From Salegentibacter sp. R32 (GTDB taxonomy: Bacteria > Bacteroidota > Bacteroidia > Flavobacteriales > Flavobacteriaceae): 64,000 nt of DNA. The first letter of the stretch is position 1. Each line of letters begins with the position of its first letter. Location of the stretch: contig NZ_RXOM01000068.1 of assembly GCF_008692195.1 (NCBI RefSeq), positions 109,111-173,110 on the forward strand, given 5' to 3'. Both the position numbers and the translations under genes were made by a program. The notes beneath the pieces were generated by a model. It was not told the origin of the DNA and ran no database searches. It saw nothing but the letters and a program-made list of their open reading frames with translations. Shown in pieces: positions 48,295 to 52,622 of the stretch.

Positions 48295-49263
48295 TTAACA
48301 ACATCCACCACCATCATAATGAAAGGTAGATTCACTTATAAAAATATCTTTTCTATTTAAACTATTTAAAGCCTTTGCAGTTTTATCACAAACAGCAAGT
48401 GGTTGGTTTTGTAATAAAACATGTCCTTTTTTATCATCAAAAAAATCTTCTTTTCCATAATAAATTGCAGTCTTTCCCGTAAACACACAAGGTCCGTCTT
48501 CTGGCATTGGGTCTTTAATGGCAGCTACCTCTATGCTTTCAATATAAATAAGTTCATCGGTTGGATAGTGGGCAGGATCTAAAATGCGATAAGGTTTTTT
48601 GGCTCTAATTTCAATCGTACCAAAACCTGCGTCGGTAAGCATTTTTACATATTCTGCCATTGGTAAACTTCCGCTTAGGCAAAGTGCCCTTAATTGTTCG
48701 TCATTGCGGAGTTCTTCATTCATCGGTTGTTCACAAATGGGGTCGCTCATTACTAACCTTCCGTGCGGTTTTAAAACCCGGTACATTTCTGCAATGGCTT
48801 TTTTTAATTCTTCAGTTTTAAAAATATTGAATAGGCAGTTTTGAGCCGCAACATCAATTGAGTTATCTTCTACCGGTAAATGAAGCGCATCTCCTTTTTT
48901 AAGATCAACAAATTCTGAGTTGAACCAAGGATTGGTTGCTTCAGCTTCCTTAAAATTTCTTCGGCTTGCTTCGAGCATTTCATCGACTACATCAACCCCA
49001 ATCACTCCGCTTTTCTGTCTTGAGAAATAAGCGAATTGTAAAAGTTCCATTCCGCCACCAACGCCTACATACAATATCTTGGGCTGATTCACCAAATCAC
49101 GCGGATGTACGGTGCTTCCGCAGCCATAATTCATCTCCTGCATAATTTTAGGGATTCTTAAACCCGGTAACTCCCACACAGGATTGGTGGTGCAGCAAAG
49201 TCCTACGTTTGGTGTTTCTGCAGCTTCTTTATAAACGTTTTTGGTAGTTTCTAGATAACTCAT
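48295..49263 (-). CDS. arsM: Arsenite S-adenosylmethionine methyltransferase ArsM (arsenosugar type)
   Basis: This 322-residue methyltransferase has the SAM loop ILYVGVGGGMELL (63-75), the arsenic-binding cysteine group C23-C24, C48, C143, C177 and C195, and a C-terminal DGGGCC (C321, C322). The start MSYLETTKNVYKEAAETPNVGLCCTTNP is the recognised form in bacterial arsenosugar clusters. It methylates arsenite to mono- and dimethyl species, giving the substrate for ArsS. It is the last gene of a six-gene operon; its ATG overlaps the PNP stop by four bases. No ArsR or arsenate reductase gene is nearby. Confidence 0.92.
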   Translation of the reverse strand: MSYLETTKNVYKEAAETPNVGLCCTTNPVWELPGLRIPKIMQEMNYGCGSTVHPRDLVNQPKILYVGVGGGMELLQFAYFSRQKSGVIGVDVVDEMLEASRRNFKEAEATNPWFNSEFVDLKKGDALHLPVEDNSIDVAAQNCLFNIFKTEELKKAIAEMYRVLKPHGRLVMSDPICEQPMNEELRNDEQLRALCLSGSLPMAEYVKMLTDAGFGTIEIRAKKPYRILDPAHYPTDELIYIESIEVAAIKDPMPEDGPCVFTGKTAIYYGKEDFFDDKKGHVLLQNQPLAVCDKTAKALNSLNRKDIFISESTFHYDGGGCC

Positions 49264-50078
49264 ACGATTTCAATTTCTCTAATTAAATCTTTAAATAAGG
49301 TAATCATTTGCGGTTCTGCCTGTTCTGCCATGGCAATAATCTCTTTCACATTTACAGGCTGTAAATTATCTGGGTCACCTTCATCGGTTAATACAGAAAC
49401 GGCGGCCACGGGTAATTTTAAATGATTGGCGACAATAATTTCTGGTACAGTGCTCATTCCTACCGCATCTGCCCCTATTGTTCTTAGCATTCTATATTCT
49501 GCACGGGTTTCTAATTGAGGTCCTAACACAGAAGCATAAACTCCTTTGTTTAATTTTAAGTTGTGTTTCTGCGCTATGGTTTCAATTTTTTTGCTCATTT
49601 GTTGGTCGTAAGGGCAACTCATATCTACAAAACGGTCACCGTATTGCGAAACGCCTTTAAACGCTAGAGGAGAGCCTCCCAATAGATTGATATGGTCGTC
49701 AATAAGCATTAATTCTCCTTTTTTAAAGTTGAGATTGATAGCTCCCGCAGCGTTAGAAACCAATAGTTTTTTAATACCCAAACGGTGCATGATCCTCACA
49801 GGAAAAGTTACATCCTGCAAGCTGTAGCCTTCATATAAGTGAAAGCGACCTTGCATGATCACTACTTTTTTACCTTCCAATTCGCCATAAATTAAATGAC
49901 CTTTATGAAACTCTACGGTTGCGGTGGGAAAGTTGGGAATATGGTTATAACTAACTTCTTCTATAATTTTTACCTCTTCCAAGAGTTTGCCTAATCCAGT
50001 TCCTAAAATAATCCCGACTTCAGGGTTTTCAAAACCTTTGGTTTTTAAATATTTTACGGTTTGTTCTATGTATCTCAT
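49260..50078 (-). CDS. Purine nucleoside phosphorylase (arsenosugar cluster)
   Basis: This 272-residue phosphorylase has GTGLG near 26, a phosphate site near 77 (VVIMQGRFHLYEGYS), SNAAGAIN near 112 and VGMSTVPEIIVANHL near 195, the pattern of type II trimeric PNP. It splits purine nucleosides into base and ribose-1-phosphate. In this operon it could act on the adenosyl-arsenical made by ArsS and release adenine to give an arsenoribose-1-phosphate. That is inference; ordinary purine salvage is the alternative. It overlaps arsM and the TIGR04282 gene by four bases on each side. Confidence 0.9.
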   Translation of the reverse strand: MRYIEQTVKYLKTKGFENPEVGIILGTGLGKLLEEVKIIEEVSYNHIPNFPTATVEFHKGHLIYGELEGKKVVIMQGRFHLYEGYSLQDVTFPVRIMHRLGIKKLLVSNAAGAINLNFKKGELMLIDDHINLLGGSPLAFKGVSQYGDRFVDMSCPYDQQMSKKIETIAQKHNLKLNKGVYASVLGPQLETRAEYRMLRTIGADAVGMSTVPEIIVANHLKLPVAAVSVLTDEGDPDNLQPVNVKEIIAMAEQAEPQMITLFKDLIREIEIV

Positions 50079-50683
50079 AATTTTAAATATTGCTGAAAAA
50101 CACTAATGTCTTTCATATCTTCAAAAGTGTCTATGTCGTTTTTGCTTGCTAACAAAGTTACCTTTTTACTTTTTAAATCTGCTAAAGTATCTTGAAGAAC
50201 CGTGGTCGTGCTCCATTTTTTTTGCTGAAAGACTTTAGGAATAAACAATTTCATTCCTAATAAATAATACCCGCCGTCTTTTGCCGGGCCAATCACCACT
50301 TCATTATCGTTTAAATGCTGAAAGGCTTTTTCAATAGTTGCTGAATCTAAATCGTATAAATCGCTTCCAATGATAACGACTTTTTGGTAGCCTTCTTGAA
50401 AAGCTTCAGCAAAAGCATTTTTCATTTTTGCTCCTAAATCTTTTCCTTGTTGAATTTTTTTCTGAAATAAATTTGAATCAAAATCATCCTCAAGAATAAT
50501 TTCTTTCGAATAAAAAACCTGCTTATCTGAATTTACTTGTTCTGATACTTGAGCGGTGTGTTGTAATAAATGTTTGTAGATGGCTAAAGCAGCTTCATCA
50601 CCAATACTTTTTGCTAATCGGGTTTTGCATTTGCCCAGTTCTGGGTTTTTGGTGAAAATGAGCAGTAGGTTTTTGTTTTTCAT
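50075..50683 (-). CDS. TIGR04282 family arsenosugar biosynthesis glycosyltransferase-like protein
   Basis: This 202-residue protein has LLIFTKNPELGKCKTRLAKSIGDEAALAIYKHLL near 5-40, then GSDLYDLD near 116 and PAKDGGYYLLGMK near 143, the pattern of the DUF2064/TIGR04282 family. It has a nucleotide-sugar transferase-like fold (metal-binding DxD-type SDLYDLD). Members occur in arsenosugar gene clusters and should take part in building the sugar group. It overlaps both neighbours by four bases. Its exact reaction is not established. Confidence 0.88.
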   Translation of the reverse strand: MKNKNLLLIFTKNPELGKCKTRLAKSIGDEAALAIYKHLLQHTAQVSEQVNSDKQVFYSKEIILEDDFDSNLFQKKIQQGKDLGAKMKNAFAEAFQEGYQKVVIIGSDLYDLDSATIEKAFQHLNDNEVVIGPAKDGGYYLLGMKLFIPKVFQQKKWSTTTVLQDTLADLKSKKVTLLASKNDIDTFEDMKDISVFQQYLKL

Positions 50684-51171
50684 TCGTAAACTTTTTCAGC
50701 ATTATGGAGCCATTTTCCCCAACGTTTATTGAAGGCGTGGACTTTTTCTGTACTTTCTTTTTGATTGTTGAAAACCGGATAACCTTTATTTTTCCATTCA
50801 AAAATACCTCCGTACAGATTTTGAATATGGGTGTAACCTAATTTTTCAAGTTGTTCTCCAATCTTTTCAGACCGAATTCCCAAAGAGCAATAAACAACAA
50901 GAGGAGTTTCTTTATCTTTTATTTGTTGCTGAATTCTTTCCACAGAAAAATTTTTATACCCTACAAGTATAGCATTTTGAAGGTGACTAGTGTTGTATTC
51001 TTCCAGTTCCCGAGCATCTAACAAAATAAAGTTTTGCTGATTGGCCCTTAATTGTTCTACTGAAATAAAGGGAATGGAGTGTTTGGTGCTTTTCTCTAAA
51101 AGATTGCTTAATGAATCTTGCGAAAAGCTTATAAAACTAATAAAGAACAGGATGTTGATTAAAAACTTCAT
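50680..51171 (-). CDS. Exported rhodanese-like protein
   Basis: This 163-residue protein has a signal peptide (MKFLINILFFISFISFSQ) and a rhodanese domain with active loop CSLGIRS near residue 114 (VVYCSLGIRSEKIG) and LLDARELEEYNTSHL near 62. The periplasmic location is unusual among arsenic genes. It may carry sulfur or arsenic as a persulfide-like adduct, or act as an arsenate reductase-like single-cysteine enzyme. ATG at 51171 is chosen; the upstream frame is inside the ArsS gene, which ends at the same base (TAATG overlap). Confidence 0.86.
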   Translation of the reverse strand: MKFLINILFFISFISFSQDSLSNLLEKSTKHSIPFISVEQLRANQQNFILLDARELEEYNTSHLQNAILVGYKNFSVERIQQQIKDKETPLVVYCSLGIRSEKIGEQLEKLGYTHIQNLYGGIFEWKNKGYPVFNNQKESTEKVHAFNKRWGKWLHNAEKVYE

Positions 51172-52226
51172 TACGCCACTGAACCTTGACAACTGCTTCC
51201 TGCACCGGCAGTACAACCATAGCAATGTTGAGAAGTGATGATATTTCTATTTTCTAAAGCGGCTTCATCGTAATTGCTAATGTGTTTTACCTTACTCGCT
51301 ACTTTGAGCTCTAACATTTGATTGAAGTCACAATCGTAAAGCCAACCGTCCCAACTAACGGAAAGTGTATTTCTGCACATCACATTTTTTACAGCAGAGG
51401 GGTTGTAGGCGTTTACCAATTCGTACATGTAATCTTCATAATTTTCAGAAGCGATGAGGTATTCTAAAAACCGACTAATGGGTAAATTGGTAATCGCAAA
51501 AAGATTATTGAATTCAATTTGAAAATCTTCCCACAATGCTTTTTTAAAATCATGTTCCATCGCTTCTTGGTTGGTAGGTAAAAAAGCCCCGGAAGGATTG
51601 TACACCAAGTCAAGTTTTAATCCGCTGTCTTCTTTGCCGTAACCTACTTCATTCAGCATTTTTAAAGCTTTGATAGATTTATCGAAAACTCCTTCACCGC
51701 GTTGTTTGTCGGTTTTTTCCCTTTTATAAAAAGGCAAGGAAGAAACTACGTGAACATTGTGTTTTTTAAAAAATTCCGGTAAATCATAATACTTTTTGTT
51801 AGCAACGATAATGGTAAGGTTCGAACGAACGATAAAATCTTTAATTCCCGCTTTAGAAGCTTCTTCAACAAACCACCGGAAATTAGGGTTCATTTCTGGT
51901 GCTCCTCCAGTTAAATCTAAGGTATGTGCTCCGGTTTTTTTAATTGCTTCTAAACAATGTTGCATAGTTTCTACCGTCATGATTTCTTTTCTATCTGGAC
52001 CGGCATCCACATGACAATGGGAACAAACCTGATTGCACATATAGCCTAAATTAAGTTGAAGTATTTCTAATTTCTTCGGTTTTAGGGGAGCATCATCAGA
52101 TTTTTCCAATTTATTTTTAAAGGTGGGAAGTTCTCCTTCTGCAAATAATCCGTTGCTTAAAAACTCTAATTGTTTTACAGGATTGGATAATTCATTATTT
52201 CTTGCAGAAAGAGATTTGGTAGTCAT
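51171..52226 (-). CDS. arsS: Radical SAM arsenosugar synthase ArsS
   Basis: This 351-residue radical SAM enzyme has the cluster motif C64-x3-C68-x2-C71 in the characteristic run NLGYMCNQVCSHCHVDAGP. Later come cysteines CRNTLSVSWDGWLYDCDF and a C-terminal CYGCTAGAGSSCQG for auxiliary clusters. The family transfers a 5'-deoxyadenosyl group to dimethylarsenite, making the precursor of dimethylarsinoyl ribosides. It is the second gene of the operon, 60 bases after the peroxidase-like gene and directly overlapping the rhodanese gene. Confidence 0.94.
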   Translation of the reverse strand: MTTKSLSARNNELSNPVKQLEFLSNGLFAEGELPTFKNKLEKSDDAPLKPKKLEILQLNLGYMCNQVCSHCHVDAGPDRKEIMTVETMQHCLEAIKKTGAHTLDLTGGAPEMNPNFRWFVEEASKAGIKDFIVRSNLTIIVANKKYYDLPEFFKKHNVHVVSSLPFYKREKTDKQRGEGVFDKSIKALKMLNEVGYGKEDSGLKLDLVYNPSGAFLPTNQEAMEHDFKKALWEDFQIEFNNLFAITNLPISRFLEYLIASENYEDYMYELVNAYNPSAVKNVMCRNTLSVSWDGWLYDCDFNQMLELKVASKVKHISNYDEAALENRNIITSQHCYGCTAGAGSSCQGSVA

Positions 52227-52286
52227 AAAACTTTAGTGTTTTCGGTTTAAGAAATGTAACGAAAAATGAAGCTGTTCAGTTTTCAG

Positions 52287-52622
52287 TTACATCGATAGTT
52301 TTTTGTATTTGTTCATCATTTGTACTCCGTGAACAAGCGTAGCGCCACTTTCTATGGCGGCTCCGGCGTGAACGGCTTCCATCATTTCTTCTTTGGTAAT
52401 GCCTCGTTGTAAACCATCTTTGGTGTAAGCATCAATACAGTAGGGGCATTTAACCACATGAGAGACTGCTAAAGCGATGAGCGATTTTTCACGGGCAGAG
52501 AGTTTACCTTCTTCAAACACTTTTCCGTAATAATCAAAAAACTTTTCTCCCAGCTCTTCGCTCCATTCGGTGATTTCTCCAAATTTTCTAAGGTCTGCCG
52601 GATCGTAATAAGATTTTGCCAT
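52287..52622 (-). CDS. Arsenosugar biosynthesis-associated peroxidase-like protein (carboxymuconolactone decarboxylase/AhpD fold)
   Basis: This 111-residue protein has the AhpD-like CPYC motif (C59-x2-C62 in HVVKCPYCIDAYTK) and helical repeat pattern SLIALAVSHVVK, EEMMEAVHAGAAIESGATLVHG. It belongs to the small peroxidase-like group often encoded in arsenosugar clusters. It is the first gene of the operon. It probably handles thiol redox reactions at arsenic centres. The leader has no exact promoter motif, only a partial TTATTTTTA. Confidence 0.88.
   Translation of the reverse strand: MAKSYYDPADLRKFGEITEWSEELGEKFFDYYGKVFEEGKLSAREKSLIALAVSHVVKCPYCIDAYTKDGLQRGITKEEMMEAVHAGAAIESGATLVHGVQMMNKYKKLSM

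Follow-up and report, generated by a model that had tools for sequence, protein, structure and literature searches.

We analyzed a stretch of 64,000 nucleotides from Salegentibacter sp. R32 (contig NZ_RXOM01000068.1; hereafter the window), whose source genome, G000, is 99.76% complete. The minus strand of the window carries a run of six same-direction genes (48295-52622) that are predicted to form one operon. A sequence-only reading had described them as a compact arsenosugar biosynthesis operon with mostly overlapping genes, and both the arrangement and the type of cluster were borne out. A spacer of 60 bases separates the first two genes, and from there on each gene overlaps the next, by 1, 4, 4 and 4 bases in turn. 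Five of these proteins score above the cut-offs of NCBIfam models for arsenosugar clusters or their neighbours.

The first gene (52287..52622) encodes an AhpD/CMD-type peroxidase-like protein of 111 aa with the CxxC motif CPYC (TIGR04169, 198.4 bits; cut-off 120). It is followed by the radical S-adenosylmethionine (SAM) enzyme ArsS (51171..52226; 351 aa), which displays the Cx3Cx2C cluster motif as CNQVCSHC and reaches 450.2 bits with TIGR04167 (cut-off 300). The third gene (50680..51171) encodes a rhodanese (NF045521, 203.1 bits; cut-off 145) with the active-site loop CSLGIRS; we took an ATG as its start, and the open reading frame listing favours an upstream TTG. Its N-terminus is predicted to be of the export type, in line with the signal peptide claimed before. 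Judged by hydropathy of mechanically called open reading frames and no signal-peptide predictor, a hydrophobic N-terminus precedes the domain in 53/53 rhodaneses compared, and all 53 keep the loop cysteine. That NF045521 ('rhoda_near_glyco') denotes a neighbour of arsenosugar clusters is our reading of the model name. The fourth gene (50075..50683) encodes a DUF2064/CofC-like TIGR04282 protein (218.8 bits; cut-off 134), a predicted nucleotidyltransferase, and the last (48295..49263) encodes ArsM of the arsenosugar type (NF038099, 582.7 bits; cut-off 400). Between these two lies the gene of the sixth protein (49260..50078), which passes general purine nucleoside phosphorylase (PNP) models such as NF006054 (345.3 bits; cut-off 218).

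Compared with the arsenosugar clusters described by NCBIfam (NF038099, TIGR04167, TIGR04169, TIGR04282 and TIGR04283, with NF045521), the operon differs in two respects. The models that its PNP passes bear no arsenosugar name, and a TIGR04283 partner is missing. As the sequence-only reading had noticed, the operon lacks TIGR04283, and no protein of the genome exceeded the cut-off (best E value 1.2e-12; 14 of 24 first-look candidates scored). If a complete cluster is taken to have TIGR04283 either in place or elsewhere in the genome, that of G000 is incomplete among the candidates scored. The cluster is thus of a known kind; what is new is the phosphorylase and the re-read TIGR04282.

Recurrence of the gene order

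A genome collection was scanned with ArsS. Of 591 loci confirmed, we kept the best 80 (L003-L082), a set that leans to close kin, and annotated them using the operon proteins as queries. Both the nearest ArsS loci and the PNP kin place G000 among the flavobacteria. ArsS and the peroxidase-like gene are present in all 80 loci, accompanied by TIGR04282 in 64, PNP in 63, the rhodanese in 52, ArsM in 50, TIGR04283 in 31 and a paralogue resembling TIGR04282 in 22. The most frequent order, peroxidase-ArsS-rhodanese-TIGR04282-PNP-ArsM-TIGR04283, was found in 24/80 loci, and the same order without TIGR04283, as in the window, in 9/80. Because it recurs in this way in other Flavobacteriaceae, the gene order is not a chance arrangement. 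A gene-order survey had been suggested as a check on the role of the phosphorylase, and within these flavobacterial loci the gene proved to be conserved. Seventeen loci are devoid of PNP. Two of these are cut by a contig edge (L035, L072), L053 has TIGR04282 and ArsM, and 14 comprise ArsS and the peroxidase-like gene only, plus at most the paralogue or ArsM. In Aquimarina agarivorans (L021:3992-4961) ArsM is split into two partial frames, reflecting either a sequencing error or a broken gene.

Specificity residues and distribution of the phosphorylase

In ordinary PNPs, a histidine touches the ribose 5'-hydroxyl and an asparagine touches a 6-oxopurine; we take these to be His257 and Asn243 of human PNP. 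Both residues occupy the corresponding columns in PDB 8swu and in XapA (L269). The operon PNP does not have this pair of the inosine/guanosine-specific enzymes and carries Asp232, as in adenine-type enzymes, and Val244. The same Asp/Val combination is found in L268, a methylthioadenosine (MTA) phosphorylase encoded beside mtnA that is 25% identical to the operon protein. Asp at the base position together with a small or hydrophobic residue other than His at the 5' position is presumably what marks MTA phosphorylases (MTAPs), and the operon PNP shows both. By our own reading of the alignment, His is likewise absent from the 5' column of five aligned MTAP-family chains. As far as residues can tell, the Asp and Val/Ile pair suggests a pocket that would fit adenine and, at the 5' position, a hydrophobic or bulky group such as that of 5'-deoxy-5'-dimethylarsinoyl-adenosine (DDMAA).

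Among 82 linked PNPs, that is, those encoded beside TIGR04282 or within an ArsS locus, position 244 is Ile in 79 and Val in 3. The 62 unlinked PNPs aligned with them comprise 48 with His, 9 with Ile, 2 ambiguous and 3 atypical ones, and 29 further PNPs of the order Flavobacteriales have His in 28 cases and Ile in one (G100). In a midpoint-rooted tree of 92 PNPs, one branch with a support of 100/100 splits the two types; the tree includes 11 of those 80 loci with ArsS and 5 of the further 29 PNPs, and it excludes L143, L191-L193 and rows containing over three X. Asp232 is present in nearly all PNPs of the order that were read, the exceptions being three reduced f16 genomes and G033. All 48 PNPs of the His type in the order have it as well, which ruled out Asp at the base position as a mark of arsenosugar PNPs.

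We then counted the genes in a census of 196 genomes drawn evenly across the order. ArsS was over its cut-off in 17 genomes, TIGR04282 in 25 and TIGR04283 in at least 19 among the matches listed. TIGR04282 is present in all 17 ArsS genomes and in all listed TIGR04283 genomes. All 17 ArsS genomes encode PNP alongside TIGR04282; four of them, G000 included at the candidates scored, have no TIGR04283 over the cut-off. In six ArsS genomes PNP lies remote from ArsS, and there it adjoins TIGR04282 in 6/6 cases, together with the rhodanese and ArsM in 3/6. The linked PNP type was found in 23/25 genomes with TIGR04282 versus 9/171 without it (p = 1.4e-20), and counting by genus, the sole correction made for kinship, gave 18/18 versus 3/55. 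Nine genomes (G183 and eight of family f15) have an Ile-type PNP and no TIGR04282, and two (G114, G119) have TIGR04282 and no Ile-type PNP. A PNP match was obtained in 137 genomes of the order. The residues are unread in 28 of these (26 reduced f16 genomes and the contig-edge fragments of G037 and G017), ambiguous in G052 and G126, unaligned in G033 and atypical in the three f16 genomes that were read. All these genomes were counted as being without the type, and none has ArsS or TIGR04282 over the cut-off.

Beyond the order, tandem PNP genes were seen in L287 (G240) and L289 (G361), one copy with Asp/Leu and the other with Asn/Leu at the specificity positions.

TIGR04282 and neighbouring genes

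The TIGR04282 family is named 'arsenosugar glycosyltransferase'. An AF2 model of the operon protein (pLDDT 94.7) was found by Foldseek and VIA-align to be closest to guanylyltransferases, and nucleotidyltransferases ranked above glycosyltransferases. The closest known proteins include the 3-phospho-D-glycerate guanylyltransferase 7p97 and 2i5e and 6bwh (Rv2983), which we take to be CofC/FbiD enzymes; they are 14-19% identical to the operon protein, which scores too low for the CofC model (47.9 bits; cut-off 105). Its nearest named relatives are from Mesonia (89% identity). An alignment of 58 sequences provided the motifs KTRL (20-23), GSD (106-108) and DGG (136-138). On the basis of the model, TIGR04282 is predicted to be a nucleotidyltransferase and not the glycosyltransferase of its name. 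When the neighbours of TIGR04282 were clustered in 20 genomes picked as lacking ArsS and ten of them were annotated, a common clue to the substrate was absent.

L013 (11061-11744) and 21 more ArsS loci also hold a paralogue of TIGR04282. The L013 paralogue covers the final two thirds of the TIGR04282 model (92.5 bits; cut-off 134) and is devoid of KTRL. Because of this partial match and the absent motif, the paralogue may be a non-catalytic partner.

Several further genes accompany the ArsS loci, annotated for representatives (one each, except for DUF547 and fatty-acid hydroxylase). In 11-14 loci, L055:11902-16621, L069:17965-18816 and L047:7366-8706 among them, a SusC/SusD pair, a metallophosphoesterase and a protein resembling sodium/solute symporters are encoded. 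These genes mostly have the TIGR04282-like paralogue on one side and the rhodanese or peroxidase-like gene on the other, and they suggest outer-membrane uptake tied to the cluster. Genes for DUF547 (39 loci) and fatty-acid hydroxylase (18 loci) proteins, with examples at L076:14130-14930, L016:13734-14624 and L354:5076-6775, frequently separate TIGR04283 from ArsM or TIGR04282, a hint that the product may be linked to lipid. A DM13-domain protein of the secreted type with a type IX sorting tail is encoded between TIGR04282 and PNP in L059 (19903-20631) and nine more loci, and a PHO4-family phosphate transporter follows ArsM in L053 (13354-14466) and six more.

A proposed route and its alternatives

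In the parts of the papers covered here, PMC12159101 cites ArsS as the adenosylating enzyme, and PMC8552651 places its action in the first steps. An 'adenosyl nucleosidase' step, given without a gene, was proposed for an algal arsenolipid and is repeated in the covered part of a review (PMC10456119). Within open-literature titles and the beginnings of abstracts, a body that leaves subscription papers mostly outside, we found no assignment of a phosphorylase gene to arsenosugar synthesis, and across the literature covered no gene is assigned to the steps that lead from the arsenic-bearing adenosine made by ArsS to the arsenosugar.

We propose that ArsM would methylate arsenite to dimethylarsenite, to which ArsS would add a 5'-deoxyadenosyl group to give DDMAA. 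PNP would then remove adenine from DDMAA, or from its reduced form, by phosphorolysis and thereby yield 5-deoxy-5-dimethylarsinoyl-ribose 1-phosphate. TIGR04282 would load this sugar phosphate onto a nucleotide, and the resulting nucleoside diphosphate (NDP)-arsenoribose would serve as sugar donor for TIGR04283 where present, or for another glycosyltransferase of this genome, which would transfer the sugar to an acceptor. The peroxidase-like protein and the rhodanese stand outside these steps; that they act on the arsenical by redox or sulfur chemistry is a guess only. All chemical steps in this organism, above all those after ArsS, are ones that we infer. The sequence-only reading had PNP cut off the adenine and pass a sugar phosphate to TIGR04282. 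The first part gains support from the residues, Val/Ile replacing His; the second needs revision, as TIGR04282 would activate the sugar phosphate and not attach it. We consider the chances evenly balanced that the operon combines ArsM, ArsS, adenine phosphorolysis and nucleotide activation by TIGR04282 in sequence. The narrower proposal, that an MTAP-like PNP and TIGR04282, a nucleotidyltransferase despite its name, yield NDP-arsenoribose as the common arsenosugar donor, is put forward tentatively, as a possibility that we would not yet favour.

A like logic is known from hopanoid synthesis, in which radical SAM adenosylation by HpnH is followed by removal of adenine by the phosphorylase-type enzyme HpnG. 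In contrast to that system, the substrate of the operon enzymes would be a methylated arsenical and not hopene, and the matches to the two models are weak and below the cut-offs (ArsS to HpnH, 32.1 of 225.05 bits; PNP to HpnG, 20.6 of 187.1 bits). Phosphorolysis of 5'-modified adenosines, including fluorinated ones, has precedent in the covered part of a review: in the fluorometabolite route of Streptomyces cattleya and in MtnP, phosphate cuts a 5'-substituted 5'-deoxyadenosine to give a 5-substituted ribose 1-phosphate (PMC6302742).

A number of observations weigh against the proposed route. PNP narrowly passes the inosine/guanosine model TIGR01700 (303.4 bits; cut-off 293.35) and stays below the MTAP model TIGR01694 (99.7 bits; cut-off 274.85), and a second MTAP-annotated record, L267, carries His. 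Outside the order, the Asp and hydrophobic pair occurs in all ArsS genomes whose PNP was read (16/16) and also in 18/18 ArsS-less genomes, best match read; this sample was chosen by likeness to the operon PNP and mostly leaves out second copies. The solved PNPs 4lna and 4m1e have the pair with Leu. Being widespread in Bacteroidota PNPs and present in these structures, the pair is not specific to arsenic, and a change from His to Val/Ile as an arsenic-specific mark was rejected at the phylum level. Queries with PNP, MTAP and uridine phosphorylase gave no PNP or MTAP hit in 19 ArsS loci of other lineages (0/19 within some 8 kb, or 4 kb for one flank of L319), 9 of which have TIGR04282, and beyond the order 0/16 loci with TIGR04282 have a PNP within 1.5 kb. 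PNP is thus no universal member of such clusters: its linkage is seen in Flavobacteriales and, among the matches listed, in one genome outside (G236). In other lineages, a PNP from another part of the genome could act in trans. Finally, the fold likeness of TIGR04282 is no demonstration of function.

The main rival gives PNP a general role in purine salvage or clean-up, with adenosine, MTA or the 5'-deoxyadenosine left by abortive turnover of radical SAM enzymes as substrates; PNP would then be co-transcribed by chance and not touch the arsenical. The PF01048 family, to which MTAP and MTA/SAH (S-adenosylhomocysteine) nucleosidase presumably belong, has only two members in the genome, the operon PNP and one read as uridine-phosphorylase-like, and a search of the genome for MtnA found none. 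For these reasons the operon PNP may also take part in purine or MTA salvage, and the residue pair in ArsS-less Bacteroidota speaks for the same view, as do pairs of PNP and TIGR04282 without ArsS (G133, G014, G026, G074 and G090 in the order, G236 outside it). As an account of the operon we nonetheless find it unlikely, if less so than the alternatives below. Three ArsS genomes keep a separate His-type PNP beside the cluster-type copy, and the link between PNP and TIGR04282 is kept even where the cluster is split. Moreover, PNP seems dispensable, because the linked type is absent from 15/30 sampled genomes of the same family (G000 included), and 8 of those 15 are without any TIGR01700 match.

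The ArsS-less pairs could instead mean that PNP and TIGR04282 form an older module, which makes an NDP-sugar, destined for a glycoside or glycolipid, from another 5'-modified adenosine and to which arsenic genes were added later, with arsenosugar as one of several products. TIGR04282 exceeds its cut-off in at least 178 and ArsS in at least 121 of 296 phylum genomes (among the matches listed). G133 has rhodanese-TIGR04282-PNP and TIGR04283 with ArsS absent, and in G119 fatty-acid hydroxylase and DUF547 genes lie between TIGR04282 and TIGR04283, with genes of the same size in G114. Set against this, all 17 ArsS genomes of the order carry both genes and the ArsS-less cases are possibly remnants of lost clusters, and we judge the idea improbable. 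A last alternative is arsenate reduction aided by PNP, in which arsenolysis of a nucleoside gives a ribose-1-arsenate that thiols reduce. PNP might in this way deliver arsenite to ArsM; such reduction by PNP is described in vitro, and its occurrence in vivo is called unknown, in the covered part of PMC12608789. This helper role appears very unlikely, as PNP keeps with TIGR04282 where ArsS is elsewhere or absent and the residue change is left unexplained.

The route through PNP and TIGR04282 supplies candidates for two steps of arsenosugar synthesis and predicts that synthesis proceeds via a sugar phosphate and a nucleotide sugar. It would also correct the name of TIGR04282, which is likely a misnomer. 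Arsenic would thereby join the pathways that handle 5'-modified adenosines by phosphorolysis.

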